Virus record (IMG/VR): IMGVR_UViG_3300003323_000790
Location: 16,993 to 80,992 of that record
Source: a virus
Length of the DNA stretch: 64,000 nucleotides
Strand: one strand, 5' to 3'
Position 1 is the stretch's first letter, and the number at the start of each line of letters is the position of its first letter. Below are positions 8,227 to 52,587 of the stretch, one piece after another. Made by a program: the position numbers and the translations under genes. The notes below the pieces were generated by a model. The model did not search any database. It worked only from the letters and a program-made list of their open reading frames with translations, and had not been told where the DNA came from.

Positions 8227-8739
8227 ATGGTTACCGATAAAGAAAAAGAACAGCGAGCCAAAGAGGCCGCCTGGAACATCGCCGCCCTGGCTGGCTCTCC
8301 TGATCTGCAGGCCTACCGCATGCTGGCTTCCAAGGTGCGCGGCCTGGCTCGACATAACTCCGCGCTGGCGGTATGGGAGATCCAGGACGGCGAGATTTAC
8401 GTCCGTAACCGCTACTTCGTCATCAACGCGGCGGCCACACTGGAGCACGGCATGCGCCTGTTCCTGCGGGAGGAAATGACCCGCGCAACCTTGGAGATCG
8501 GCCACATCCCCACCCGCCTGCCCGGCACCGACTGCTTTGTGTGGGTCCCACGCCACACCGACGCGCGCTTCTGCCCGTCGGACCCGGCGGACGTGACCAG
8601 CCACACCCGGCTCTCAATGGGCATTATGTTCGGCTGCCCGGCGCGCATCGGCACCCTGGTGGAGGGCAAGGAATACCTGACCCTTGCCCGAGACATCGAA
8701 TCTTACCGACAACAGCTGGGAGCATTGGCACATGCCTAA
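8227..8739 (+). CDS. Hypothetical protein
   Basis: 170 aa between the helicase and primase genes. N-terminal helices are charged (DKEKEQRAKEAAW), and the middle is mixed alpha/beta with no nuclease or ATPase motif I can name. It overlaps the primase start by 8 bases, so it is part of the replication operon. The upstream 41 bases contain a TAGAAT that could be a -10 box, but I find no good -35. Confidence 0.6.
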   Translation: MVTDKEKEQRAKEAAWNIAALAGSPDLQAYRMLASKVRGLARHNSALAVWEIQDGEIYVRNRYFVINAAATLEHGMRLFLREEMTRATLEIGHIPTRLPGTDCFVWVPRHTDARFCPSDPADVTSHTRLSMGIMFGCPARIGTLVEGKEYLTLARDIESYRQQLGALAHA

Positions 8740-11700
8740 TTTCATCTACTACCAAGTCAAGGGTGGTGAAGAGCGCTGGACGGTCGGACCAGCCTCGCAG
8801 GTAGAGCGCATTCGCGACGAATTCAACCCTATGTTCATCACGGCCCTGTCGGTGGCCAAGATGCCTGAAGAGCTGGAGTACGACGAGAAGCTGAAGCTGG
8901 CCTACTACGGTCCGCTCTATTTCGACTGGGATTCCGAGGACGGCGCCCACGTGATCGAGAAGGTCAACGAGATGCTCGACAACCTCGAAGAGCTAGGCCT
9001 GGACCTGCATGCCTGCCGGCTCTACGCCACCGGCGGGCGAGGCTATCACCTGGAGATCCCACCCTATCTCTTCATCGACAAAGACCCGTCCAACCGCGGC
9101 GTGGTGATGCTGCCGGCGATCTACCGCGAAATGGCGCTGGACTTGGCCGTCGACACCCTTGACCTGACGATCTATTCGACCGGGCGCGGCCGCATGTGGC
9201 GCCAGCCTAACGTCGAGCGCCAGAACGGCCGCTATAAGGTGCCGATCACGGTGGACGAAATGCGCTCGATGACCGTCGAGCGTTGCGAAGAGCTGACCTC
9301 CAAGCCGCGCTCCTTGGAAGCACCGACCAAGGCCGAGTTGTGCCTGAAGCTGAACATCAAGTACGAAGAGGCCAAGCAAAAAGTCGAGGCGCTGATGAAG
9401 CGTCGCGGCAAATTCAAGGCCGATCCGAAGGCCAAGGAGAAGGCGAATGGCCTGTCGGTCGAGATGATGCTGGCCGGCCTGGGTATCAAGGAAGGTTCGC
9501 ACTTCCAGCAGATCGCCACGCAGCTGGCGATCGTGGCGCACACGGCCGGCTGGTCGGAGAGCGATCTGGTCGAGAAAGCGCAGGGGTTGGTGAACAGCCA
9601 CCAGAGCGACGGCAATCGCTACAACAGTCCGGAGAAGCGCAACAATGAGCTGCGCCGCATGTGGCGCTACATGTACGACAACGTCTGCTACGAATTCAGC
9701 ATCGGCGCCCTGAAGGCGCTGATGTCACACTCGGCGCCCGACTTGGACAACATCCCAACGACGCGCGAAGAGCTGGAGCAGACCATCAAGGAAGAGGCGG
9801 CGGCCGAGGCGGAATCGGAAGATCAGGAGATCGACGAATACGCCGACGTCGCCGCCGGCATTTCGCTCACCAAGTACGGCGTGTACATGCAGACCGCCAC
9901 CGAAGGCAAGAAGCGCATCTGCGCTGTCTCCTTCGAGACATCGGCGGTGCTGTTCTCCACTGAGTCCGGCCAGATCGTGGCCTTCGAGGCCGAGGTGCTG
10001 GTCAACGGGCGGCCGTCGGGCCGCCAAACCCTTGAGCTGGATGTGTTCTCCGGCCTTGTGCAATTCAATCGCTTTGTGGCCCGCTACGGGCACTCATTCC
10101 AAGGCACAGATCTTCAAGTACGGACGGTTATGATGCGCTTTGTCGAGCAAGCAAAAAAGAAAGGCGAGAGCCTGTACATCGTGAAGCGGGAAGGACTTGA
10201 CCTCGTCAACATCCAGCACCACGAAAACGAACTCTACCGCAAGCCCTTCCTGGTGTGGGCTGACCACCACCAAGTCGTGCTGCAAAAAGAAATCGCCGAG
10301 TCGGGCCTGAACCTCGTCTTCACCGGCTTCCCTGATCCGCAGGGTGAGTTCAAAACCGACCTGTCACAGGCGCCGGTGCTCAAGGAGTGGATCGAAGAGC
10401 CTGGCAATAAGGAAAAGCTGCGCGACGTGCTGCAGGCGGCGATGACCTGCCAGAAGTCGGAGCTGATCGGCAAGTACATCGGCTGGTATGTGGCCTGCTT
10501 CTGGAAGCCGCTGTTCCAGGCGGCGTACGGCAAGTTCCCGCTGCTGCACGTGAACGGCGCGGCGGGCGCCGGGAAATGTATGGGGTTCAACACTCCGGTG
10601 ATCATGGCCGACGGCACCACGAAAATGGTACAGGACGTGCAGGTTGGCGACCAGTTGCTCGGACCGGACGGCGGCGTACGCAACGTGCTGTCGCTGGCGC
10701 GCGGCCGGGAGCTGATGTACCGCGTGACCCCGGTAAAGGGTGACTCGTATGTTGTAAATGCGTCACACATCCTGAGCCTGAAACGTTCAGATCGCTCCTG
10801 CCGGCTGTCGGACGGGACTCAGGTTACCGCGGCAGATGACGTCGTGAACGTCAACGTCGAGGTCTACGCACACAGTTCGGCTGCCGCCCGCAAGGCGTTG
10901 AAGGGGTGGCGCAGCGACGCGGTGGAATTCCACCGCGAGGCAGAAGACCTGCCGCTGGACCCTTACTGGCTGGGCGTATGGTTGGGCGACGGCAAGCACG
11001 ACCTGCCGCAGATCACGAAGCCAGCAGATACGAACATGGTGCGCTGGTGGATTGCCCACGCTGAGCAACATGGCCATCTGGTCTCTCGCCATGAGTATGA
11101 TGATCGCTGCCCGAGCTGGGCGGTACGCTCTAAGGACGGGCGCTGGGATGCACAAGGCAACCAGTTCACGCAGCGCCTGCAGGCCCTCGGCCTGCTGGGC
11201 AACAAGCATATTCCGGCGGCATACAAGTTCGCGCCGATGGAAGACCGCTTGCGTCTGCTGGCCGGCCTGATTGACTCCGACGGCTCCCTGGACAAGGCGG
11301 GCTACGACTGGGTCAGCAAAGACAAGTCACTGGCGGAAGATTTTGCCTTCCTCTGCCGCTCGGTCGGCCTGGCCGCTTATGTCAAGGAGTGCACGAAAGG
11401 TATCCAGTCGACTGACTTTGTGGGCACCTACTGGCGCGTGAGCGTCAGTGGGGACTGCGACAAGATCCCTTGCCTGGACAAGAAGGCGCCGCCACGCAAG
11501 CAGGCAAAGCGTGTGACGGTGACTGGCATCTCGGTGGAGCCTATCGGCGTGGACAACTACTACGGTTTCCAGATCGACGGCGATCATCTGTTCTTGCTGG
11601 GCGACTTCACGGTCACCCACAACACCGACATGACCAAGTCCTTCTCCTGCTTCTTCTACCACCAGCGCGAGCCGTACTCGACGTCGCCGACCTCGACCGT

Positions 11701-12730
11701 CTTCTCGATCACCCAGCAGATCTCCAGCACCTCGTCGATCCCCTTCGTACTGGACGAGTACAAGCCGCACGCGCTGCAGGGTGACATGGTCAACAAGTTG
11801 CGCGCGATCTTCCGAGACAGCTACAACCAGACGATGATGGCGCGCGGCGGCGGCACACGCGAGAACGACGACTACCGCCAGCTCCAGCGCACTCAGCTGT
11901 CGGCGCCGGTGGTATTCATCGCCGAGGCGGCCGAATCCGAGCCGGCCGTCATGGAGCGCGTGGTGCTGGCCACCGTGGTGCCGCCGCCGGCGTCGATGAA
12001 GAACACGTGGCGCGCGCGGTTCCAGCTGTTCCGCCAAAACCGCGAGCTGCTGGGCATCCTGGGCCAGTACCTGGCCGCCAAGGTCGTGCAGTCCTATTCG
12101 GTGGACCGCCTGCGCACGGAGTTCAACGACCTGTACGAAGAGGCTGCCAACACCTACATGCTCAACGCCGACGACATCGAGCGCATGAAGGCCGGCGACC
12201 TGGACGAAGAGCTGTCGCTCAAGGCCAACGCCAAGGAGCGCTCGGTGTACAACCACACGGTGGCCAAGTTCGGATTCCAGCAGTTCAGGAGCCTGATTAA
12301 CCAACTCTTGGGACCTGTGCTTGATGACCTGATGGGCGAACTTGAGTCCGGTCTCTACGCGCGCATGTCCGACTTGCAGGCCTCGACCACACCGGAAATT
12401 GTCCGCGTGCTGGAGACGATGTCGCGCATGACCTATGCGACGGAGGACACCCGGCCGGATGCGTTGCGCGAGAACTACGAATATGCGATTGCCGGCGACA
12501 CCTTGGAGCTGGACGCTTACTCGGCCTACACGCGTTATCGCATCTTCATGCGCCAGGCTGCCTTGCAGCCGCTCTTCCCTGACGTCTATCCATTCCTGCA
12601 GGCGATGAAGGACTTGGAGGCGTACAAGTCGACGGCGACGGGCGATCACTTGAAGCGGCCGCAGGTGATTGTGCTGTCGATCAACGCGCTGACCCGCGCC
12701 GGCGTGCCGCCATTTAAAGGCGGCAAATAA
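8732..12730 (+). CDS. AEP-type primase / helicase fusion with intein
   Basis: 1332-aa precursor, ~983 aa after loss of a 349-aa intein. The N-terminus has archaeo-eukaryotic primase signatures: FDWDSED (residues 64-70, metal ligands), GGRGYH (~101-106) and YSTGRGRMWRQPN (~150). A helical PriCT-like region follows (~240-340). The C-terminal half is an NTPase: P-loop GAAGAGK|T split by the intein, and VLDEY as Walker B. It likely primes and unwinds at the phage fork. The start overlaps the upstream gene by 8 bases. Confidence 0.82.
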   Translation: MPNFIYYQVKGGEERWTVGPASQVERIRDEFNPMFITALSVAKMPEELEYDEKLKLAYYGPLYFDWDSEDGAHVIEKVNEMLDNLEELGLDLHACRLYATGGRGYHLEIPPYLFIDKDPSNRGVVMLPAIYREMALDLAVDTLDLTIYSTGRGRMWRQPNVERQNGRYKVPITVDEMRSMTVERCEELTSKPRSLEAPTKAELCLKLNIKYEEAKQKVEALMKRRGKFKADPKAKEKANGLSVEMMLAGLGIKEGSHFQQIATQLAIVAHTAGWSESDLVEKAQGLVNSHQSDGNRYNSPEKRNNELRRMWRYMYDNVCYEFSIGALKALMSHSAPDLDNIPTTREELEQTIKEEAAAEAESEDQEIDEYADVAAGISLTKYGVYMQTATEGKKRICAVSFETSAVLFSTESGQIVAFEAEVLVNGRPSGRQTLELDVFSGLVQFNRFVARYGHSFQGTDLQVRTVMMRFVEQAKKKGESLYIVKREGLDLVNIQHHENELYRKPFLVWADHHQVVLQKEIAESGLNLVFTGFPDPQGEFKTDLSQAPVLKEWIEEPGNKEKLRDVLQAAMTCQKSELIGKYIGWYVACFWKPLFQAAYGKFPLLHVNGAAGAGKCMGFNTPVIMADGTTKMVQDVQVGDQLLGPDGGVRNVLSLARGRELMYRVTPVKGDSYVVNASHILSLKRSDRSCRLSDGTQVTAADDVVNVNVEVYAHSSAAARKALKGWRSDAVEFHREAEDLPLDPYWLGVWLGDGKHDLPQITKPADTNMVRWWIAHAEQHGHLVSRHEYDDRCPSWAVRSKDGRWDAQGNQFTQRLQALGLLGNKHIPAAYKFAPMEDRLRLLAGLIDSDGSLDKAGYDWVSKDKSLAEDFAFLCRSVGLAAYVKECTKGIQSTDFVGTYWRVSVSGDCDKIPCLDKKAPPRKQAKRVTVTGISVEPIGVDNYYGFQIDGDHLFLLGDFTVTHNTDMTKSFSCFFYHQREPYSTSPTSTVFSITQQISSTSSIPFVLDEYKPHALQGDMVNKLRAIFRDSYNQTMMARGGGTRENDDYRQLQRTQLSAPVVFIAEAAESEPAVMERVVLATVVPPPASMKNTWRARFQLFRQNRELLGILGQYLAAKVVQSYSVDRLRTEFNDLYEEAANTYMLNADDIERMKAGDLDEELSLKANAKERSVYNHTVAKFGFQQFRSLINQLLGPVLDDLMGELESGLYARMSDLQASTTPEIVRVLETMSRMTYATEDTRPDALRENYEYAIAGDTLELDAYSAYTRYRIFMRQAALQPLFPDVYPFLQAMKDLEAYKSTATGDHLKRPQVIVLSINALTRAGVPPFKGGK
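10577..11623 (+). mobile_element. Intein 2 with LAGLIDADG endonuclease, in the primase-helicase P-loop
   Basis: 349 residues from Cys (CMGFNTPVIMADG) to Asn (GDFTVTHN), next extein residue Thr. Block B-like VNASHILSLKR. Two LAGLIDADG helices are visible: YWLGVWLGDGK and LLAGLIDSDGSL. The insertion splits the Walker A Lys from Thr, a common intein target. Unlike intein 1, the endonuclease is in frame. The extein residue is Thr, compatible with splicing. Confidence 0.9.
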
Positions 12731-24283: not shown

Positions 24284-24786
24284 GCGGAGCAGCTAACAGA
24301 GGTCGCTATGCTGAAAATAAGGTGCGCGAACACCTCAAAGCCATCGAAGCGCGATGGTCCAATTTCACCTTCAATCGCAACCAAGATGCACATGCCGCCC
24401 GCGGCGCTTTCGTGGCAGTGCCAGGAGACTTCCAGGCGTTCAAGGGGTGGTCCGACGATGCTGGACAGCCGAGGCATGAATCGTATATATTAGAGGTGAA
24501 GGAAGTTGCTCATGCCTCACGGCTGCCGTATAAAAATTACAGCGCGGACAAAGTTGCACGAATTCGTGTCCGTGAATTGTGTAATTGCCGGTGTCTGGTG
24601 CTGGTCTGCCACCGAGCTGGTGGGAAAATATTTTGGCGTGCGGTACCTCAAAATTTCTTCTACACCCGCAACGAACAAACCCCTTCAGGAAGCTGGGACC
24701 TCAGCGAATTTCCTATAGTTGATTTTCGAGTGGCAATAAATAATCTAGTCGGGCTGGAGCTGGACAATGGTGAGAAGAAACTTTAA
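24280..24786 (+). CDS. PD-(D/E)XK nuclease, Holliday-junction-resolvase-like
   Basis: 168 aa. NRGRYAENKVREHLK is the N-terminal helix with catalytic Glu. GAFVAVPGDFQAF supplies the Asp, and YILEVKEV the E-x-K. This order fits archaeal-type Hjc/VRR-like nucleases, which phages use to resolve recombination or replication junctions or to clip DNA. A substrate cannot be fixed from sequence. The 3' end is AT-rich next to the inserted, broken HNH gene, which overlaps it by 20 bases. Confidence 0.68.
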   Translation: MSGAANRGRYAENKVREHLKAIEARWSNFTFNRNQDAHAARGAFVAVPGDFQAFKGWSDDAGQPRHESYILEVKEVAHASRLPYKNYSADKVARIRVRELCNCRCLVLVCHRAGGKIFWRAVPQNFFYTRNEQTPSGSWDLSEFPIVDFRVAINNLVGLELDNGEKKL

Positions 24787-31324: not shown

Positions 31325-31692
31325 GATTGGGTCCGGTCCCGCACGATGGCGATAAGTTGCTGCATATTCTGCGACAAGTTGGCATTGGCGGCGAGCATTT
31401 CTTTTCTCAGCTCGGAAACACTTACCTGAACTTGGCTGATCTGTCCCTGCAGGGCGTCGATCTCGCGATCCTGTCGACGATGGATCTCAGCCAGCTGCTC
31501 GCGGAATTGGGCGCGCAGCTCACGGATCTCTTCTCGATGCAGCTCCTTGACCTCAGCCAGAGCTTCTGTAGAGGCCTTTTTCTCCAAGGCCAGCTCATAC
31601 CTCTTGGACTCCTGGCGCAGCAGGCCCCAGATCACTAACAGGAGAGCCCCGGCCACAGAGAGTGCATAGACCAGCATTTGACTTTCAGACAT
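31321..31692 (-). CDS. Membrane-anchored coiled-coil protein of the lysis cassette
   Basis: 123 aa. One N-terminal membrane segment (~7-25), then a charged coiled coil to ~100 (EALAEVKELHREEIRELRAQ). The layout recalls XhlA-type holin partners or antiholins. A specific role is inference from position. It overlaps the holin gene by 4 bases. Confidence 0.65.
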   Translation of the reverse strand: MSESQMLVYALSVAGALLLVIWGLLRQESKRYELALEKKASTEALAEVKELHREEIRELRAQFREQLAEIHRRQDREIDALQGQISQVQVSVSELRKEMLAANANLSQNMQQLIAIVRDRTQS

Positions 31693-32119
31693 GACCGGCC
31701 TCTTTCATAAAGCGGCGCATGGTACGCCTTTGTTGTATTTTCGTGACACTATCGGACAGCACGATGCAGACTAACAACTGAGCTGTCTCGAACATAGGCT
31801 GGGTGATTTTGTAGACGCCGAGACCTTCGGAAGGGCCAAAGATGGCACCGAAAATATGCCCGGCAGACAGGAATGCGGACAGCACAGCTACCCAGCAGCT
31901 GGCGCGCACTTGGAGGGCAATTGCCAGAACCATGAGCACTAGCTCGATTACCAGCCACTCTACATACCAAATCCAAGTGGGCCAGACCCATGGGAGTTCG
32001 GTCAGCAGAACGGCAGCGACGCTGCCGGACAAGAGCATACCGCGCCCGCAGGCGCGATTGAGCCACAGGGCTGCGCAGAGCAGCACCACATAGGCAATGT
32101 GCAGCCCTGTGTAAAACAT
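31685..32119 (-). CDS. Polytopic membrane protein of the lysis cassette
   Basis: 144 aa with about four membrane helices (~5-20, 27-45, 50-72, 77-100). Trp-rich (WVWPTWIWYVEW). No family recognised. It could be a second holin or an antiholin. Its start has no clear Shine-Dalgarno and lies 3 bases after the micro-ORF stop, so it is probably coupled to it. Confidence 0.62.
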   Translation of the reverse strand: MFYTGLHIAYVVLLCAALWLNRACGRGMLLSGSVAAVLLTELPWVWPTWIWYVEWLVIELVLMVLAIALQVRASCWVAVLSAFLSAGHIFGAIFGPSEGLGVYKITQPMFETAQLLVCIVLSDSVTKIQQRRTMRRFMKEAGHV

Positions 32120-32122
32120 GGC

Positions 32123-32197
32123 TTACTGCGACGGCGGTTTTGGTGGGGTTGGTGGCGGCTCGTTACCGTTACCGCCCAGGCAGATAAATGGGTTCAT
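32123..32197 (-). CDS. 24-aa Pro-rich micro-protein or leader peptide
   Basis: ATG with GGAGAG 4 bases upstream, reading MNPFICLGGNGN and then a Pro-rich tail ending PSQ. First coding unit after the lysis promoter; its stop is 3 bases before the next ATG. It may serve mainly to couple translation to the membrane-protein gene. Its Shine-Dalgarno lies in the 3' arm of a hairpin. Confidence 0.55.
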   Translation of the reverse strand: MNPFICLGGNGNEPPPTPPKPPSQ

Positions 32198-32200
32198 TTT

Positions 32201-32229
32201 GCTCTCCAGAAATTGACTATCTGGAGAGC
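32201..32229 (-). promoter_or_regulatory. Hairpin hiding the Shine-Dalgarno of the lysis leader
   Basis: Stem GCTCTCCAG/CTGGAGAGC (9 bp), 11-base loop. On the minus strand the 3' arm contains the GGAGAG ribosome site of the micro-ORF. RNA started at the adjacent promoter would begin inside the 5' arm and could not form the hairpin. Confidence 0.65.
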
Positions 32230-32230
32230 A

Positions 32231-32259
32231 ATTCTACTAGGAAACGAACTCAGCAGCAA
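32231..32259 (-). promoter_or_regulatory. Lysis-cassette promoter
   Basis: Minus strand: TTGCTG, 17 bases, TAGAAT, directly after the tail fibre stop. Predicted start near 32222-32225. Confidence 0.65.
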
Positions 32260-32262
32260 ATT

Positions 32263-34452
32263 TTATGCCAGGTGCAGGCACTGAATCGTCAGGGTTGCGG
32301 ATGGGTTAGGGCCGGCGGCGGCCCAAACCGTATCTTGGTAGTTCGCACTGACATTCAACGCGCGGCTGTTGGCTGCCGTGTTGATCAGTCGTACAGGGAT
32401 CGACGTCGGCTCGGCCCAGCCATAGTTGCTGTACTGCAAGGAGGGCTTGGCGCCGTCAAGTACGGTCAATGCCCGTGCTGTGCTGCGCAACAGATTACGC
32501 GGCTTCGTGGCCTTGATGTCCGAGTTGTCCAGCGGCGTAGCCGTCTGAGCGTATGTAGCTGCTCCTGGCATCCTCCAGTCATCCGGGTAGGTGCCAAATC
32601 CATAAGACGGAGCAACCATGGTCACTTCCGTTGCCGTAGCAAGTTGCCAGCGTCCATCGTTGACATATACGGCAGTTGCAGCCGCATCGGTGTAGACCAG
32701 GGCGCTGGCGTTACCTGTCGGGATGCCGCTGAGGAAGCCGACCGACCAGAATTCGGTGACCGGCCGCGAGGATACCGTGCCCGTTACGGCGATGTAGAAG
32801 GGTGAGCCGGCGAGGTCGGCATTGCCGCCCCCGTAAGCTGCCGTAAGCGAAGTGACCGTACCTTGGAACACCACCGAAGTAGAGAATGCCGCGGCGGGTG
32901 CGGCACTTACTGTCAGGGCGGCCACACGCACCGTCGTATTGACGAGCATCACTGCCCACAGCGCATTACTGCTGTCGTAGCGCACTGCCAGATAGGTAAC
33001 AGCCGTGGTCGTTGCGGTCGCTACGGTTCCCAGCGTCAGCGCGCCGCCCGCTCCAACGGTATAAGGGCGAGCGGCGATCTGCGTTGCACTGGCCGCCAGC
33101 AATAGAGTAACCACATTGTCGCTGGTGCGTGGGAGCTGCGTAACGACAGACGAAACGATAGTGTTGGTCACTGCCGTCCCGGCGACAAGGGTGGCGCCGG
33201 AGATTTCCAGCCCATACGAAACGCAGCTGGTAGCCGAGGTCAGGCCGGTAATCATAAAACGCCCCGATCCCAGGCCGGCCGGAACCATGTCCTGGATCTT
33301 CGTCCAAGCGGTGCCGAGCGTAATGGAGAGCGGAGTGCCTAGTGTGATGGTACTCGCCGCGATGGTCAGGCGCACCACTTGCAGCGCCGTGCCATTGACC
33401 GAGGCCACGATCACATCGTTCGATCCGTCATTCACCATGCAGGCGTAGACGCTGCCGTCGTCGCCGGCGGCGACTAGACCAGTGCGAATTTGTGCCGGCG
33501 ACTGCAATGTCGCCGGGAAATTAGCCGGGTCGTACAGTACTGCATGCAGGCTGGCTCCGTGCACAAGCACCAGTTGCGTGGAACCGGTCAGCAGCAGTGA
33601 TTTGGTGTACAGGCCGCCGGTCCCGGCCACAGCCGAAGAGAATGTGACCTTATCCATCATGACCGTACCGTACGGGCGCGTTTCCCCTGAAATGTCCCAC
33701 TCTGCCGTGCCGCCATTCAACTCGGCTTGGCGGTCCGGAGGCAGATAGCAATCGGTGCCGGAGAATGCGTTGATGGCCACGTCATAGCCATAGCCATACC
33801 CGCCAGGACCTGCTTGGTTACGCAGTGAAAAGACATTCGGCCCCTGTTGCTGAGTAGCTGCCGCGGTAACGGAGAAGGCCGCGCCGGCGCCTGCCGGCTT
33901 ATTGACCTGATATCTATTGCTTGTGGTGCCCACCAGCATCACTGCGCTGGACGAGGTGACTTGGCCTGTGTCGGGTACGCCGGGCGCCGAGGCACTGATG
34001 GTCCAAGTGCTCGACGCGCCGGTGCCGCGTGCGCGAGTAACCGCCACGGTCGTGGAGCCGGTGCCAGAGTTGTAAGCCGTGATGGGGCCGTTCATCCAGC
34101 GCGTCGAGGGCGTAGTGGTGTCCGCGACGGTAACCCACATGCCAACCACCCAAGTCTTGCCGGTCTGGGAAGTGAATGTTTTGCTGGCCACCGATGGCGT
34201 CAGGCTAGTCGTAGACGTGCCGTTGGTATTCGGCGTGGCGATGGCCGAAGCAGCAGATGCCGCCGCATTGGCGGCAGCAGCATTTGCGGAGGCCAAAGTG
34301 GCATCCGCGTATGCCCGGTCTGCATTGGTCTCGACCATGATGTCCGATAGCATCGGCAACAGGCGAACGCGAAAACCGCCGTTCCCCATGCCGGTGACTG
34401 GATCGTCATCGTCGGTATAAGTATGGCCATTGGCGATAACAGTGGTGGTCAT
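32263..34452 (-). CDS. Tail fibre / receptor-binding-type virion protein
   Basis: 729 aa. An N-terminal Ala-rich helix (~40-70, ADATLASANAAAANAAASA) of the kind found in tail fibre trimer stalks, then ~650 residues rich in Gly, Thr, Ser and Val that look all-beta. Many short tandem-like strands with alternating hydrophobics suggest a beta-propeller or beta-helix, but I could not fix which. Last gene of the tail operon before the lysis unit, the usual fibre position. It overlaps the upstream gene by 4 bases. Confidence 0.7.
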   Translation of the reverse strand: MTTTVIANGHTYTDDDDPVTGMGNGGFRVRLLPMLSDIMVETNADRAYADATLASANAAAANAAASAASAIATPNTNGTSTTSLTPSVASKTFTSQTGKTWVVGMWVTVADTTTPSTRWMNGPITAYNSGTGSTTVAVTRARGTGASSTWTISASAPGVPDTGQVTSSSAVMLVGTTSNRYQVNKPAGAGAAFSVTAAATQQQGPNVFSLRNQAGPGGYGYGYDVAINAFSGTDCYLPPDRQAELNGGTAEWDISGETRPYGTVMMDKVTFSSAVAGTGGLYTKSLLLTGSTQLVLVHGASLHAVLYDPANFPATLQSPAQIRTGLVAAGDDGSVYACMVNDGSNDVIVASVNGTALQVVRLTIAASTITLGTPLSITLGTAWTKIQDMVPAGLGSGRFMITGLTSATSCVSYGLEISGATLVAGTAVTNTIVSSVVTQLPRTSDNVVTLLLAASATQIAARPYTVGAGGALTLGTVATATTTAVTYLAVRYDSSNALWAVMLVNTTVRVAALTVSAAPAAAFSTSVVFQGTVTSLTAAYGGGNADLAGSPFYIAVTGTVSSRPVTEFWSVGFLSGIPTGNASALVYTDAAATAVYVNDGRWQLATATEVTMVAPSYGFGTYPDDWRMPGAATYAQTATPLDNSDIKATKPRNLLRSTARALTVLDGAKPSLQYSNYGWAEPTSIPVRLINTAANSRALNVSANYQDTVWAAAGPNPSATLTIQCLHLA

Positions 34453-42800: not shown

Positions 42801-43817
42801 CGCCTGCACGAACTTGAGCTGGTACTCGACTTCTTTGCCGACGGTCACCACATTCTTGAGGGACGCGGCCAGCGCGGCGCCAGCCGCCAGCGGGATCAGG
42901 CTGCCGTAGGTCAGCCACAGGCCGCCCAAGGAGCCCGCCAAGCCGCGCGCCAGTGCGTGGCCTTCGGCCATTGCTTCGTTGTGCGCGGCGATCGCCGCCG
43001 TGCTGGAGGCGGCCGCCGGCGGCATGGCAGCCAGTTGGCGCCGCAGCTCTGCCAGGTTGGCGCCGGCGGCGGCGCTGCCGTAGCGCTCCGATGCGTTGCC
43101 GCCGAGGCTGCCATAGACGGCCGCCTTCTCGGCCGTGGCGATTTGGCTGGCCAGGCTGGAGGTGGTGAAGTTGGTGTTGAGCACGCGCTGCTTTTCAGCG
43201 GCAGCGGCCTTCTTGGCTTCCAGATCGAGCGTATTCTGCCAAGAGGCGGCAGCCGCTGCTTCTTCCAGTGCGCGCCGCTTGCGAAGCTCGGCTTCCAAGG
43301 TAGCGGTCTTCTTGGCTTCGAAGCTGAGCAAGGTTTGCCACGAGGCTGCAGCGGCGGCCTCGCTGATAGCAGCAGCGCGGTCATAGCTGGCTTGCAGCGC
43401 GGCGGCGCGCTTGTTCTCAGCCGCCATCTCGGCTTCCAGCTCCTTCATAGCCGTGGCGGTTGCTTTATTGATCCGGGCCGAGGCAGCGGCCTCCTGCGCT
43501 GCCTCGGCGGCGGCGTAGAACTTGTTGCGGTCAAACAGCATCTTGTCGAGACCCTTCTCGACAGCGGAAGCTTCTTCGGCTGCGGCGGCTTTGGCGCTGG
43601 CTACGCGCCGGCCCTGGGCGGCCGTCTGGACGGAAAGGATCTCGGTGAGAGAGGTGGAAATGGTCTTGACCATCGCCTCCATTTGCTGGGTGAGCGAGGC
43701 CAGCGCGGTCTCGCGCGCGGCAAGCTTGTCGAACGACGAGGCGACCCGATCGATGGCATCTGCCATTCGCTTTAGGTCGTCTGCGCCGCTGGCATTGATG
43801 CTGTTGTTCTCGTCCAT
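36846..43817 (-). CDS. Tail tape measure protein
   Basis: 2323 aa, the longest gene. The first ~250 residues are Ala/Glu/Lys coiled coil. Hydrophobic segments lie at ~660-730 (LAMGVLGPLALLIGGL). At ~1750-1925 three near-identical ~60-residue repeats carry QAQLYE(L/I)TGDKAAAAAVLEQ, with a weaker fourth. At ~2165-2218 is a DUF4214-like unit (FYRNILEREPDAPGLANWI), followed by KGGMAYGVSLVGERGPELV, typical of tape-measure ends. It sets tail length and helps DNA entry. Its Shine-Dalgarno (AGGGG) is inside a hairpin. Confidence 0.93.
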   Translation of the reverse strand: MDENNSINASGADDLKRMADAIDRVASSFDKLAARETALASLTQQMEAMVKTISTSLTEILSVQTAAQGRRVASAKAAAAEEASAVEKGLDKMLFDRNKFYAAAEAAQEAAASARINKATATAMKELEAEMAAENKRAAALQASYDRAAAISEAAAAASWQTLLSFEAKKTATLEAELRKRRALEEAAAAASWQNTLDLEAKKAAAAEKQRVLNTNFTTSSLASQIATAEKAAVYGSLGGNASERYGSAAAGANLAELRRQLAAMPPAAASSTAAIAAHNEAMAEGHALARGLAGSLGGLWLTYGSLIPLAAGAALAASLKNVVTVGKEVEYQLKFVQALSQEAVPLDNFLAISGGTVVGIKDAAEGMRALAQNGLSVKDSLAVLPAVLNLATIGEMGVEQAALAATGALSAFGLQIGDIERVGDILAKTAASSNTSVAAMTESLKQGSIAASLYGVSIEETSAALGTLAKINIVGSQAGTAYSNLLTSLYAPTKQATKALDELGVSAKNVDGSLKNSSVLLAELRNALSKYNESAQANYIGDITNNRGAKAVSTLLQYLDDYEKKIQEARDATGFMSDAVTTLGDSTEGAFKRLKNSMDETFIRAFSQSQPALQALVDGLAQVARSEGATRILTNLAAGTVSLAQGAVSSAKEIGVLVAAVSTVTLGMKAWTGATTLYTTALAGAEAATITFTTATRLAMGVLGPLALLIGGLTLAYQLYNAEIDKQEQANQKIQNSTRTRIDMLDSENKSLEKRIELIREKLRLEGDKGDQPAAPTTLQAAAEAMNRLNAAAAAAKKTVDNAMSPTKEMLANYANLSKQAEEAQANYYKLSAAETANKGLNAEQKTLNDRAALIKQLEDLAKKSEVIKTIGGKDVAVEDQSNEAARGKAAEALDILEKFKSNSLTYTQALAAYTETRRDYNASLQDRPKTATNDELNAQVQQLQGAKQLFDIQQRTKTLELDAARAAGRVGELEYLRQKTTLERQSLTVAYDTAMSEAALMSAADKKRGAEQKYTNQANDAIEKGKQLLIQQAAAEQAYFTQLDKENLTRQADALQARGQLVDAYLLKFEADTSQTVSGLQSNIKALESDITKALESGDTSNVDDLLEKLGKLNTALNAISQRRSAGVDTALFAQLKTQFDTLINSIQGAVQEAQAKGTEEGGLAGMLGVSDAAESIQRKLLPTTKELWAQLKAIAETSNNPELAKAFEEINKKYQQQVNTLEKATKPFGDTWKSIWKTVDQSAHDAFVSWGKSGVDTMKKIKEAIKTSILDMLYQLTIKKWIIEISTNVTGALSSITSGGSALSTLLGGSSESTGAAGGSSTMASILGGASNLFTIGKAIYGGLTSGITGSLASSISSAGSLFGSEALSAFGAGMQGGALGAGTASASSGYAGSAAASYGAGAAKAIPIVGWIIAGMEAANSFMKQGFTPNNGTITNPIFKAISAPTNLVYSSLSKLGVGSTLANILSGAAINTKLFGRADPVVTSQGVRGTISDTGIAGGESYANILEKGGWFRSDKRYTNTAALPSDFSNSLVSGFTQVKVAAAGYAAVLGLSTDVLKDYTKAFDISLGSDQTKNTDAITAFFAQVGDELSTKLLPSIASFSKVGEAASATLQRLAGDYKSTDTIAQLLGKTGVQAFGAIGIASLTAREQFINMSGGIDALSSKLTSYSQNYLTTQEQNAPVIAALNAEFAKLNVKVPTTREEFKALVSGLDLTDAAQVSTFNSLMDLQAAFAQVTPAVDKAAETANILSQQAQLYELTGDKAAAAAVLEQQHQLALKGMSAELAAATQAVWGAQKATAAREDQKSILDQQAQLYEITGNKTAAAAVLEQQHQLALQNMSVELAAATQAVWDAQKAEAAKKEALDEQKAILEQQAQLYEITGDKAAAAAVLEQQHQLALKDMSAALAEATKATWAAQASQQANQQRTQDMLSELQLQSQISEALGNSAGKAAAQIAIQTLQLQGLTPALAALNKELYVAQASKGVTDAYQDLVTKSQSAVDALTKFADSLDNLQQTLNQGDLSTLTPEQKLAKAKVTYEDTVAKAIAGDETAQGNLSSVAQDYLKASRAYNASNPTYAADATRVQNDITKLATSTRSQISVQKDILATAKAQLDALGLQTSTTASGLQAVADAVKALGQAIATLNSTKDIKTPSGDPSQASHSAIELAITSFYRNILEREPDAPGLANWIEAYNKGVSLDTIASDFYKSDEYLSKHSHAKGGMAYGVSLVGERGPELVDFTHPAQVYPAAQTAGMFARGPQASYDPVARQLLESLVREAQAANAQRAAIAEREEELAAADLDEQRRAQRVARSNNSKN
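37930..38575 (-). repeat. Tandem ~60-codon repeats in the tape measure gene
   Basis: Three close copies (about 38425-38575, 38257-38400 and 38065-38220) of a unit encoding QAQLYE-x-TGDKAAAAAVLEQ and QHQLAL-x-MSAELAAAT, plus a degenerate copy (LQSQISEALGNSAGKAAAQ) toward 37930. Boundaries are approximate. Confidence 0.85.
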
Positions 43818-43821
43818 AGAA

Positions 43822-43861
43822 GAAGCCCCTCAGTAGATACGGATTATCGCTGAGGGGCTTC
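43822..43861 (-). promoter_or_regulatory. Hairpin hiding the tape measure Shine-Dalgarno
   Basis: 12-bp stem GAAGCCCCTCAG/CTGAGGGGCTTC with a 16-base loop. The 3' arm holds AGGGG 8 bases before the tape measure ATG. The -10 box of a promoter (43843-43848) is in the loop, so locally started RNA lacks the 5' arm. It could also act as a partial terminator. Confidence 0.7.
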
Positions 43862-43871
43862 CTATTGGCAA
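43843..43871 (-). promoter_or_regulatory. Tape measure promoter
   Basis: Minus strand: TTGCCA, 17 bases, GATAAT (5/6 matches each to the sigma70 consensus). Predicted start near 43836, between the two arms of the hairpin. Confidence 0.65.
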
Positions 43872-43875
43872 CAAC

Positions 43876-44705
43876 TTATGCCTTCATCGTGACGCCGGCG
43901 GCCTTACGCATTTCGTCTAGGCTGCCTGATTTGGCATGCTTGGCCGCGTGGCGCTCCCGGAATACTTGATCCATGTTCTGGACGTACAGCAACAACTCTG
44001 CATACTCGTCCGGATCAAATATCCCAAGGGCCCAGCAATGCGCCTGAACTTCTGAGACAGGGACTGCCAGAGGCTGGCCTTGGTCGAATCGCCGGCTGTG
44101 GCTGAGTTCTCGGTATATCTGCGCAAAGTAGCTTTGCCGGAACGTCAGGACTGGGCGGCGGTCCAGATAGGCTGGCCTGGGAATCCCTGATTTTGCCAGG
44201 TATTCTAGGTCAGCTGCACTGTGCTTTCCGCCCCAGTCAAGTTCCCACTCGATGTGGGCACGGAGTTTTTTGCGTTTTCATCCTCCTGCTGAACCAGGAA
44301 GCTGCGATGGCTTTCTGCGATGCGAGTGATCACCGCGCGGAAGTCTTTGATGGCCAGCAGCTCTTCTGCTGCTTCCGTCGAGTAGGGCAGTGGGTTGCCC
44401 TTACGGTCGGTCATGCCGGCCCAGTTCAGCAGCACGGTCTTGGCCAGCGCGGTACCTACCAGCTTGAAAGCCAGATCGTCGCCAGCCTTGCGCTCTTCCT
44501 CGGTTGCGTCATCCGCTTGACCACGCTTCAGAGTTTCTTCGTTGGCCTTCCACATAGCCGACAGCAGGCGGGAGTAGGCGCGATTGCCGGCGCGCGCGAT
44601 GGTGCAGGTGACGCCTGGGCCAAAACCCAGCTCTTTATCGAATACGCGGCCCTTTTCCTCTGCAGTCAGGTCGGTCTCGAAAGCTTTGAAGGGGTTGAAA
44701 GACAT
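43876..44705 (-). CDS. Tail assembly chaperone fusion (GT-type, by -1 frameshift)
   Basis: The frame beginning at 44705 meets A-AAA-AAC (forward 44265-44271) and can slip back one base. The -1 frame then runs 129 codons to a TAA at 43876: LRAHIEWELDWGGKHSAADL ... MRKAAGVTMKA, with coding-quality composition but no start of its own. The 276-aa product (147 + 129) matches the G/GT scheme of long-tailed phages: chaperones that coat the tape measure before tube assembly. It directly precedes the tape measure, as expected. Confidence 0.85.
44205..44705 (-). CDS. Tail assembly chaperone (G-type, unshifted)
   Basis: 166 aa from the ATG at 44705 (AGGAG 8 bases upstream; the longer ORF start is not supported). 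Helical: FKAFETDLTAEEKGRVFD, then TIARAGNRAYSRLLSAMW. The last 19 residues follow the slip site and are replaced in the fusion. Product in excess over the GT form is typical. Confidence 0.85.
   Translation of the reverse strand: MSFNPFKAFETDLTAEEKGRVFDKELGFGPGVTCTIARAGNRAYSRLLSAMWKANEETLKRGQADDATEEERKAGDDLAFKLVGTALAKTVLLNWAGMTDRKGNPLPYSTEAAEELLAIKDFRAVITRIAESHRSFLVQQEDENAKNSVPTSSGNLTGAESTVQLT
44265..44271 (-). promoter_or_regulatory. Ribosomal -1 frameshift site AAAAAAC
   Basis: Heptamer of the X-XXY-YYZ type, in the correct zero frame (GCA AAA AAC). AGCAGGAGGAT begins 19 bases upstream on the mRNA; its AGGAGG could act as an internal stimulatory Shine-Dalgarno. Confidence 0.82.
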
Positions 44706-44734
44706 TGAAATTCTCCTAGGAAATGTGTCCTCTG

Positions 44735-44763
44735 AGAATATCATTCTTTTCTGAAAGTGTCAA
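44735..44763 (-). promoter_or_regulatory. Promoter of the chaperone genes
   Basis: Minus strand: perfect TTGACA, 17 bases, TATTCT, about 30 bases before the ATG at 44705. Confidence 0.8.
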
Positions 44764-47907: not shown

Positions 47908-48393
47908 TTAGCCCGTCACAGGATCAACGGCAAGGCCTGCCGCGGCGCCGCTGATAGGTGTAGCGGTGCCCAGCACCTCAGCGGCCGGGAACAGGTCCAG
48001 GTAGGCGTCAGTCAGCTTGCTCAGCACGTAGGCCATCGTCGCTTGGATATTCTCGCGCAGGTTCTTGAAGGGGTCGTCCACGCGGATATCCGAGGTGCGG
48101 TCATCCTTCATTTCTTTGAGGGCAAACAGCGGGGCGCTGGTCACCAGCTGCAGCGCGACGGCGTAAGTGGCGTAGAGACCTGCCAGGTCGATCAGGTGCT
48201 GCTGGTCGGCGGTCGGCGTGCCTGCGATCAGTGCGTCCAGGTCCGTCTTGAAGGTCGGGCCGACGCTACGCAGCGCGGCGCCCATGGCCACCTCATATAG
48301 CTTGAGGTTCAGGGTGTCGTCCGAAATGTCGTCGCTAGACACGCCGATGGCGGCGCGCACTTGATCGACGTCGGTATAGGGAGTGAGGGCCAT
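47908..48393 (-). CDS. Head-tail adaptor-type protein
   Basis: 161 aa, mostly helical. PYTDVDQVRAAIGVSSDDI is the N-terminal pattern of gp6-like adaptors that bind under the portal; the C-terminus is Ala/Gly-rich. First gene of a unit with its own promoter. Confidence 0.62.
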   Translation of the reverse strand: MALTPYTDVDQVRAAIGVSSDDISDDTLNLKLYEVAMGAALRSVGPTFKTDLDALIAGTPTADQQHLIDLAGLYATYAVALQLVTSAPLFALKEMKDDRTSDIRVDDPFKNLRENIQATMAYVLSKLTDAYLDLFPAAEVLGTATPISGAAAGLAVDPVTG

Positions 48394-48420
48394 GAGATGC
48401 TCCAGAGCAGGATTTCTCTC

Positions 48421-48449
48421 ATTATGGCACGCTCTTTGCTACAAAGCAA
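48421..48449 (-). promoter_or_regulatory. Promoter of the neck gene unit
   Basis: Minus strand: TTGCTT, 17 bases, CATAAT. The -35 lies in the T-tract side of the upstream terminator. Start of the 47908-48393 gene is 28 bases downstream of the -10. Confidence 0.7.
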
Positions 48450-48988: not shown

Positions 48989-49141
48989 ATGAGTACCTTA
49001 ATTAATTTCCGAGTGTCGCCGGAGCTGTTAGAAGAGGCTAAAGCACTAGCAGCTTCGATGGACCGCTCACTCGCTTGGGTGATCAGGGACTTGCTGAAGA
49101 AAGCAATCGCCGCTTCGGAGGAGAAGAGTGATGCCCAGTAA
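48989..49141 (+). CDS. Ribbon-helix-helix DNA-binding protein (50 aa)
   Basis: MSTLINFRVSPELLEEAKAL, then AASMDRSLAWVIRDLLKKA: a beta strand and two helices in the Arc/MetJ/CopG pattern. GGAG precedes the ATG. It overlaps the GIY-YIG gene by 11 bases and shares its promoter, so it may autoregulate the island. It is on the strand opposite to all surrounding structural genes. Confidence 0.8.
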   Translation: MSTLINFRVSPELLEEAKALAASMDRSLAWVIRDLLKKAIAASEEKSDAQ

Positions 49142-50120
49142 CTACCGCACCGAAGATCCTGCAGATGTCTTGGCTGTCGGCCAGTGGGCTCCACTGGCCG
49201 ACGCCGCAAGGCGTGTGCCCTGCGGCGCCGGCTTATACATCGTAAGGCACAGGGCGTCTGGCAAAGAGTATGTCGGCCTCAGTAAGAATGTCTACACTCG
49301 GCTGGACTCTCATCGCCGAGCTGCTTCGGGGTCGTTCCTTCACCGCGCAATCCGCTGCTATGGTGTAGACGCCTTCGAGGCGTGCTTATACATTCAGGCA
49401 GAGCCAGACGATCTCGGCGAGCTGGAACGCATGCTAATCGAAGAGCGTAACACTGCCGCTCCGAACGGATACAATCTGACCCTTGGTGGAGACGGTCTCT
49501 GGGGCTACACTCCTTCAACCGAAACCCGGCAGAAACTGCGCATGGCGCTTCTGGGTCGAGAAGTGTCGGAGTCCGTACGTCTAGCGGTCGCTGAGTCCAA
49601 TCGGCGTCGGGGTCAGACACCTGAAGCACGTGCAAAGATAGCCGCCTATGGCAGGACCAGAACTGCTTCGCCAGAAACACGGGCGAAGATGAGCCGGTCG
49701 CAGATGGGCCACGCGATCACTGAAGAAACCAAGCGGAAAATCGCCGCAACAAAAATCGGTATCCCACTCTCAGAAGAGCATCGACGTAAAATGTCGGAAG
49801 CCTTGAAGGGTCGCATAATCTCTGAGGAACACTGTCGAAACCTCAGCGCCGCGCTGAAAGGCAAGCCCAGGTCTGCCGAGGCTCGCGCAGCTTACTGTCT
49901 AGCTAAACAGAGACAGTTACGAGACGATCCCGCAACGTTCAGCCACCTGAACGGCGGCGGTGCTCGGCCGGTGGTTGTCACCGAACTTGATGGACAAGAG
50001 TTAGAATTCACGTCAGGCAAAGCTGCCAGCATCCACTATGGGCTTGGTCGGCACTACGTGCCCGTCAGTATTCGGATTGGGCGTAAACTGCCTGGAGGGC
50101 AGAGCGTACGGTGGAAATAA
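49131..50120 (+). CDS. GIY-YIG homing endonuclease with NUMOD3 repeat array
   Basis: 329 aa. GIY-YIG nuclease at ~30-115 (GLYIVRHRASGKEYVGLS, Arg and Glu further on, N-G-Y-N-L-T-L-G-G at ~108-116). Then about eight NUMOD3-like units of ~17 residues each (for example LSEEHRRKMSEALKGR) to ~265, and a C-terminal NUMOD1/HTH-like part (SGKAASIHYGLGRHYVPV). The repeats should wrap along the target DNA. Inserted between capsid and head genes on the other strand, with its own promoter and terminator. Confidence 0.9.
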   Translation: MPSNYRTEDPADVLAVGQWAPLADAARRVPCGAGLYIVRHRASGKEYVGLSKNVYTRLDSHRRAASGSFLHRAIRCYGVDAFEACLYIQAEPDDLGELERMLIEERNTAAPNGYNLTLGGDGLWGYTPSTETRQKLRMALLGREVSESVRLAVAESNRRRGQTPEARAKIAAYGRTRTASPETRAKMSRSQMGHAITEETKRKIAATKIGIPLSEEHRRKMSEALKGRIISEEHCRNLSAALKGKPRSAEARAAYCLAKQRQLRDDPATFSHLNGGGARPVVVTELDGQELEFTSGKAASIHYGLGRHYVPVSIRIGRKLPGGQSVRWK

Positions 50121-51969: not shown

Positions 51970-52587
51970 TTATTTAGCGGCACGGGCCGCAGCAGCGCGG
52001 GCCAGCTGTTCAAACTGCGGGGATACCTGAACCTTGGTATTCTTGTCGTCGGTCTTCGCTGCGGCTGCAGCGGCGCCGCCGATCGGGAAGGCGGCCTCGA
52101 AGGCGGCCTTGGCTTTCGGGTATTCGGCGATCACGGTGGCAGCGTCCATCGCGGCTGCGGCGTCTTTCGAACCACCCATCGGGATGTACATTTTGGTGAT
52201 GCCTTCGCGGGCCAGCGCCAACAGGCCGGAATGGGTTGCTTCCATCGCGGTCATCTTGGCCTTCAGGGTCGCGTTTTCGGCGGCCAGGCGGGTGGCTTCC
52301 TCGGTCTTGGCGGTCACCTGGGCGATCAGCTGCGCGGTAACGTCCGGCGGCGCGGCGGCTGGATTTGCGGCCAGCTTCGCGGCGGCCTCGGCGGCGGCCT
52401 TTGCGGCAGCTTCGTTCGCGGCGGCGAGCGCAGCCGCTTGGCCTTTGTCGTCCGCGGCGGCGGCAGCGGTTTCAGCGCGTACGGCTTCGTGGTGGGCTGC
52501 GATCTGCTCGGCGGAGAAACCCAAGGATTCCAGGGTCGCGCCGGCGGCGATGGCAGCTACTTGCGTTTCGTTCAGAGTGATTTTCAT
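51970..52587 (-). CDS. Nested scaffold protein (internal start in the protease gene)
   Basis: In-frame ATG at 52587 (MKITLNETQVAAIAAG), preceded by AAAGGTG, gives a 205-aa protein equal to the C-terminal coiled coil. This matches the lambda C/Nu3 and related arrangement in which protease and scaffold share a C-terminus. Independent translation is inferred, not shown. Confidence 0.6.
   Translation of the reverse strand: MKITLNETQVAAIAAGATLESLGFSAEQIAAHHEAVRAETAAAAADDKGQAAALAAANEAAAKAAAEAAAKLAANPAAAPPDVTAQLIAQVTAKTEEATRLAAENATLKAKMTAMEATHSGLLALAREGITKMYIPMGGSKDAAAAMDAATVIAEYPKAKAAFEAAFPIGGAAAAAAKTDDKNTKVQVSPQFEQLARAAAARAAK

Follow-up and report, generated by a model that had tools for sequence, protein, structure and literature searches.

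Predicted promoters inside ribosome-site hairpins at the starts of four late units, including the lysis cassette, of an unclassified phage

Four consecutive late units of an unclassified phage, headed by a connector-region gene, the tail assembly chaperone, the tape measure, and the first open reading frame (ORF) of the lysis cassette, each appear to open with a promoter-in-hairpin gate, that is, a hairpin that covers the Shine-Dalgarno sequence (SD) or start codon of the first gene and within which a sigma70-like promoter is predicted to start transcription. Judging by the modelled RNA energies, these gates probably insulate the translation of each unit from transcripts reading through from the unit upstream. 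The DNA analysed (the window, 64,000 nt) comprises bases 16,993 to 80,992 of an 80,992-bp record and has a G+C content of ~60%. The genome is of siphovirus type and non-T4, and no T4-like relatives of it were found. Its minus strand carries the late genes, encoding the large terminase, portal, S49-type protease, major head protein, and connector-region genes, followed by a tail protein, the tail assembly chaperone, the tape measure, further tail genes and, last, the lysis cassette. Terminase, tail, and endolysin matches in the collections searched were 21 to 45% identical, as were the relatives recovered via P0005, P0008, P0009, and P0010, and none was close. The viral_contigs set held no usable relatives for P0002, the capsid protein, the tape-measure N terminus, or the tail-tube protein. 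Apart from a similar site in one locus, L103, the promoter-in-hairpin arrangement was absent from distant relatives (32 to 42% protein identity).

Other features of the genome were recorded alongside. A GIY-YIG/NUMOD3 homing-endonuclease-like ORF (49128-50120, plus strand) lies opposite the late genes, in the interval separating the major head protein from the late gene that follows it, and a 1332-aa ORF (8732-12730, plus strand) carries a Hint/LAGLIDADG intein at a GAGK motif. The second half of the S49-protease ORF (53433-51970, minus strand) contains an in-frame internal start at 52587 preceded by a dedicated promoter, TTGACA-17-GATACT, a layout that would suit a nested scaffold protein.

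Upstream of the lysis cassette, the minus-strand intergenic stretch from the stop of the 729-aa tail gene (32263) to the ATG at 32197 reads AATTTGCTGCTGAGTTCGTTTCCTAGTAGAATTGCTCTCCAGATAGTCAATTTCTGGAGAGCAAA. Its 5' arm TTGCTCTCCAGA (32220-32231) and 3' arm TCTGGAGAGCAA (32199-32210) form a perfect 12-bp stem with a 9-nt loop (32231-32199), longer than the 9 bp quoted in an earlier note on this DNA, which had rightly placed a hairpin over the GGAGAG of the first ORF. This SD (32207-32202) lies in the 3' arm, 4 nt ahead of the ATG. The fold z-score was -4.3, and none of 200 shuffled sequences was equally stable. A weight-matrix scan identified a -35-like hexamer TTGCTG (32254-32259) and a -10-like hexamer TAGAAT (32231-32236), separated by 17 nt, with a predicted start at ~32224 (32222-32225) inside the 5' arm, in agreement with the earlier note. 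The promoter matches the consensus at 8 of 12 positions, with a poor -35 (3 of 6 matches) and the best purine start 9 nt beyond the -10, and is too weak to be detected by a stricter consensus scan; by weight matrix it ranked within the top 37 of 161,892 positions and far outscored all others in the intergenic gap. The chance of an equally good promoter placing its start in the arm or loop was 0.003 to 0.005. All promoter scores refer to the Escherichia coli sigma70 model, which may not be that of the host. No Rfam family matched above its gathering score in the window.

In modelled read-through RNA, opening the lysis SD costs 15 to 16 kcal/mol, compared with 5.6, 4.6, 2.0, and 2.8 kcal/mol in transcripts starting at 32225, 32224, 32223, and 32222, respectively. 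The modelled probability that the SD is unpaired accordingly rises from ~1e-11 in read-through RNA to 1e-4 (32225), 6e-4 (32224), or 0.01 to 0.04 (32222-32223), a shift in accessibility of approximately seven to nine orders of magnitude. Transcripts starting at 32224 or 32225 retain 5 to 6 bp of remnant pairing; hence, while read-through RNA is predicted to fold as had been proposed, the accompanying claim that promoter-derived RNA could not fold was too strong. The tail-gene stop lies ~31 nt ahead of the 5' arm, far enough that ribosomes terminating there should leave the stem intact.

The first ORF of the lysis unit, P0001 (32123-32197, minus strand, as are all genes of the unit), encodes a proline-rich 24-aa peptide, MNPFICLGGNGNEPPPTPPKPPSQ, that had no match in database searches. 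The earlier note had called it a lysis ORF outright, a designation for which a peptide lacking detectable relatives offers no support; a role in lysis is inferred from its position and its likely coupling to P0002. The latter, a 144-aa hydrophobic protein also without relatives (31685-32119), has no SD and starts 3 nt past the P0001 stop, and is therefore probably translationally coupled to P0001. Next come P0003 (31321-31692), a weak match to Rz-like spanins (PHROG E 3e-4), the holin P0004 (31091-31324; phrog_1356, DUF7940), the endolysin P0005 (30489-31094; phrog_181), and the Rz-like spanin P0006 (29938-30492; phrog_2466). The ends of P0003 to P0006 overlap. A single gate could control entry into the cassette, although several downstream genes carry their own SDs. 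P0001 (32197-32123) has PPPTPPKPP right before its stop, and motifs of this type are known ribosome stallers. A second stem of 11 bp, CACAGGGCTGC/GCAGCCCTGTG (32111-32064, minus strand), begins a few bases past the P0002 start codon.

The earlier note had reported a recurrence of the arrangement at the tape measure, and this, too, was recovered; with two further sites, the number of late starts so arranged rises to four. At the tape measure, a 12-bp stem with a 16-nt loop (43861-43822, minus strand) covers the GAGGGG ahead of the ATG at 43817, and the opening energy of this start, 26.7 kcal/mol, was the highest of 88 starts. The promoter, TTGCCA-17-GATAAT (43843-43871), has its -10 within the loop and a predicted start at ~43836, past the 5' arm. 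At the tail assembly chaperone, the hairpin TGA.ATTCTC..AGGA/TCCT..GAGAAT.TCA (44706-44743, minus strand) covers the AGGAG ahead of the ATG at 44705, and an extended -10 promoter, TTGACA-17-(TGA)TATTCT (44735-44763), is predicted to start at ~44728, within the hairpin, lowering the opening energy from 13.8 kcal/mol in read-through RNA to 2.7 kcal/mol. At the connector-region gene, CCAT...TGAGA pairs with TCTCATGG (48390-48427, minus strand) over the start codon at 48393; the promoter TTGCTT-17-CATAAT (48421-48449) has a predicted start at ~48414, and the opening energy falls from 15.0 to 4.7 kcal/mol. A slippery heptamer, A_AAA_AAC, occurs at 44271 (minus strand) within the chaperone gene (ORF 44705-44205), where a -1 shift would give a long extension to ~43877, ending just ahead of the tape measure, the usual G/GT arrangement.

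The arm sequences differ among the four gates, on which ground a copied repeat or shared operator was rejected. The -10 precedes the arm at the lysis gate, falls within it at the chaperone and connector-region gates, and occupies the loop at the tape-measure gate. Together, the differing arms and varied -10 placement suggest selection on function and not copying. Strong terminators lie just upstream of the connector-region gate (48478-48444, the end of whose stem coincides with the promoter -35) and the chaperone gate (44861-44839), and both of these hairpins are weaker; none was found just upstream of the tape-measure or lysis gate, where the hairpins are strongest. With four gates, this relation between hairpin strength and terminators is suggestive only.

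On the reading that we favor, polymerase arriving from an upstream unit would produce RNA containing both arms, and their pairing, if it occurs in vivo, would hide the SD or start codon of the first gene. Polymerase recruited by the local sigma70-like promoter, presumably an active one, would instead start inside the hairpin and lose most of the 5' arm, leaving a leader of 19 to 27 nt with a largely free ribosome site, and the first gene of each unit would be translated mainly from its own promoter. At the lysis cassette, the gate would shut out read-through from the tail operon, given that P0001 opens the cassette, P0002 is probably dependent on P0001, and the genes after them overlap. Counting against insulation, strong terminators already limit read-through at two of the units.

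The earlier note instead took the lysis hairpin for a timing switch in the manner of T4, with read-through RNA silent early, local promoters used only late, and the hairpin delaying lysis specifically. The anatomy is indeed that of T4 e and I-TevI, the site heads a lysis cassette, and a delay of lysis by the hairpin is plausible. However, the upstream genes are tail genes, so that read-through RNA would itself be late, the promoters resemble host sigma70 sites that would be active early, and the same gate guards structural genes (the tail chaperone, tape measure, and connector-region gene), leaving specificity for lysis without support. As a whole, this timing switch seems unlikely. The purpose served in T4, avoidance of premature lysis from early RNA, does not transfer directly to a site with late genes upstream and sigma70-like local promoters, and insulation is preferred. 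Phages usually need head and tail-tube proteins in large numbers but only few tape-measure molecules; the placement of many-copy proteins ahead of the gates and of the few-copy tape measure behind one fits insulation of dosage. A dosage or insulation role thus fits better than lysis delay, and a limited dosage of lysis genes, and hence an effect on lysis timing, is a possible consequence.

It is rather improbable that the palindromes act at the DNA level, as operators spanning the start sites to which a repressor or activator binds, with RNA folding incidental. A perfect dyad over +1 is the classic operator position, and a similar palindrome precedes the gene of an HTH-like protein in the distant relative L103, but the four palindromes have no common sequence and overlap their promoters differently, bulges interrupt the chaperone stem, and every 3' arm masks an SD or start codon, something an operator would not need to do. 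We give still less credence to a role of the hairpins between units in intrinsic termination, attenuation, or processing by RNase. In favor of such a role, TTCTTCT follows the G+C-rich stem at the tape measure; the lysis stem, by contrast, runs into AAAATG and not into the U-tract that follows the G+C-rich stem of an intrinsic terminator, and was not called as a terminator. Moreover, strong terminators distinct from the hairpins are already present immediately ahead of two of the gates.

To place the four gates among all starts, the energy required to unpair positions -14 to +3 was computed for each of 88 called genes (mechanical start calls), the best upstream promoter was scored, and the RNA was refolded from the predicted start site. 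A promoter score of at least 10 together with a drop in opening energy of 10 to 20 kcal/mol occurred at four starts, 48393, 44705, 43817, and 32197, all on the late strand, all with 17-nt spacers, and all with 19- to 27-nt leaders. Among the remaining starts with a promoter score of at least 9.5, the drop was at most 2.3 kcal/mol. The lysis start ranked second of 88 in opening energy (19.2 kcal/mol; median, 5.8), and the closed state of the gates was robust to flank length. A separate mechanical scan of the 81-kb genome, covering every SD-preceded ATG with at least 20 codons, returned the same four of 158. The internal promoter TTGACA-17-GATACT (52640-52612) of the start at 52587 served as a negative control and showed no gate (4.2 kcal/mol in read-through and ~6 kcal/mol in local RNA). 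A hairpin at 24471-24518 (plus strand) with TATATT in its loop was set aside, as it is internal to a 168-aa ORF and had not been returned by the scan.

The combination was found in 0 of 3,480 dinucleotide-shuffled upstream regions and, in other loci (1.13 Mb in total, almost entirely from viral contigs and in many cases surrounding lysis genes), at 2 of 1,638 starts (Fisher p 8e-4) or, at G+C of at least 50%, 1 of 878 (p 2e-3); the p-values are somewhat optimistic because thresholds were set after the first cases had been seen. A mere coincidence of structured leaders and weak promoter matches would draw on the general enrichment of long stems in this genome (nine perfect stems of at least 12 bp versus 0.125 expected in random sequence, several of them terminators or intragenic) and on the modest consensus match of the lysis promoter, but is the least probable reading in view of these controls and of four gates that are all on the late strand.

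An independent search of the other loci for stems of at least 9 bp over an SD gave only three matches. In one, a GIY-YIG-like ORF in L031, the stem hides the start region and TATAAATA lies in the loop, resembling the published segB and I-TevI arrangement (PMC2988022), which indicates that the search can find the known kind. Two further sites were noted. L010:3470 combines TTGATC-17-TATAAT with a GACAGATC/GATCTGTC stem that reaches the start codon of a primase-like ORF. L103:650-740, in a distant terminase relative, has TTGACA-18-TACACT and a CTCTGCAGG/CCTGCAGAG stem in front of an HTH-like ORF of 349 aa that lies upstream of the terminase; this site has the same geometry as the gates and could be an autoregulatory operator.

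Translational insulation remains the preferred reading. Its extension to a general device, in which every late unit needing separation is made deaf to read-through and takes its dosage from a local sigma70 promoter, and in which the hairpins are strongest between units that no terminator separates, is offered tentatively, as a possibility with somewhat less than even prospects. Such a gate may serve as a modular insulator that lets co-directional late genes share one array while each unit is dosed separately. The scan, combining promoter score with the drop in opening energy at the predicted start, is applicable to many phage genomes and could establish the frequency of such gates, and synthetic operons could adopt the design.

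The closest known system is T4 gene e, whose long read-through RNA is folded and silent and which is translated from RNA whose promoters leave out the 5' strand of that stem (McPheeters et al. 1986, as reviewed in PMC3014915). There, read-through RNA is early and the promoters are phage late promoters (TATAAATA, gp55) (PMC3014915). The comparison drawn in the earlier note holds for the geometry, with the start site in the 5' arm and the SD in the 3' arm: both sites have a lysis context, an SD sequestered in read-through RNA, and a local start, here predicted, that removes the 5' strand. Across the four gates, the SD or start codon is paired in modelled read-through RNA (13.8 to 26.7 kcal/mol), and the predicted starts (32224, 43836, 44728, and 48414) lie inside or after the 5' arm. 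Unlike in T4, read-through would come from late tail genes, the gated lysis ORF is a 24-aa leader-like ORF and not the endolysin, and all four promoters are sigma70-like with 17-nt spacers and not of the TATAAATA late class; hence, we do not file the arrangement as a T4 late-promoter element, although it would work like one. Promoter-in-hairpin gating is also found at T4 soc, 49, I-TevI, and segB and at Aeh1 mobE (PMC3014915, PMC2988022). The likeness is that several genes of one phage or family are gated, and the differences are the promoter class and the guarding of a tape measure, tail chaperone, and connector-region gene. A literature search beyond T4-like phages found no apt description of the arrangement. 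L031 and L010, whose GIY-YIG-like and primase-like labels are read from their sequences, likewise have a stem over the start region with TATAAATA or TATAAT in or before it, but each is a single case in its locus and L010 is A+T-rich. The mechanism itself is known from T4; what differs here is its pairing with sigma70-like promoters and its apparent use at several late structural units of a non-T4 genome of siphovirus type, which suggests that the T4 lysozyme trick is not bound to T4 late promoters or to early/late timing.
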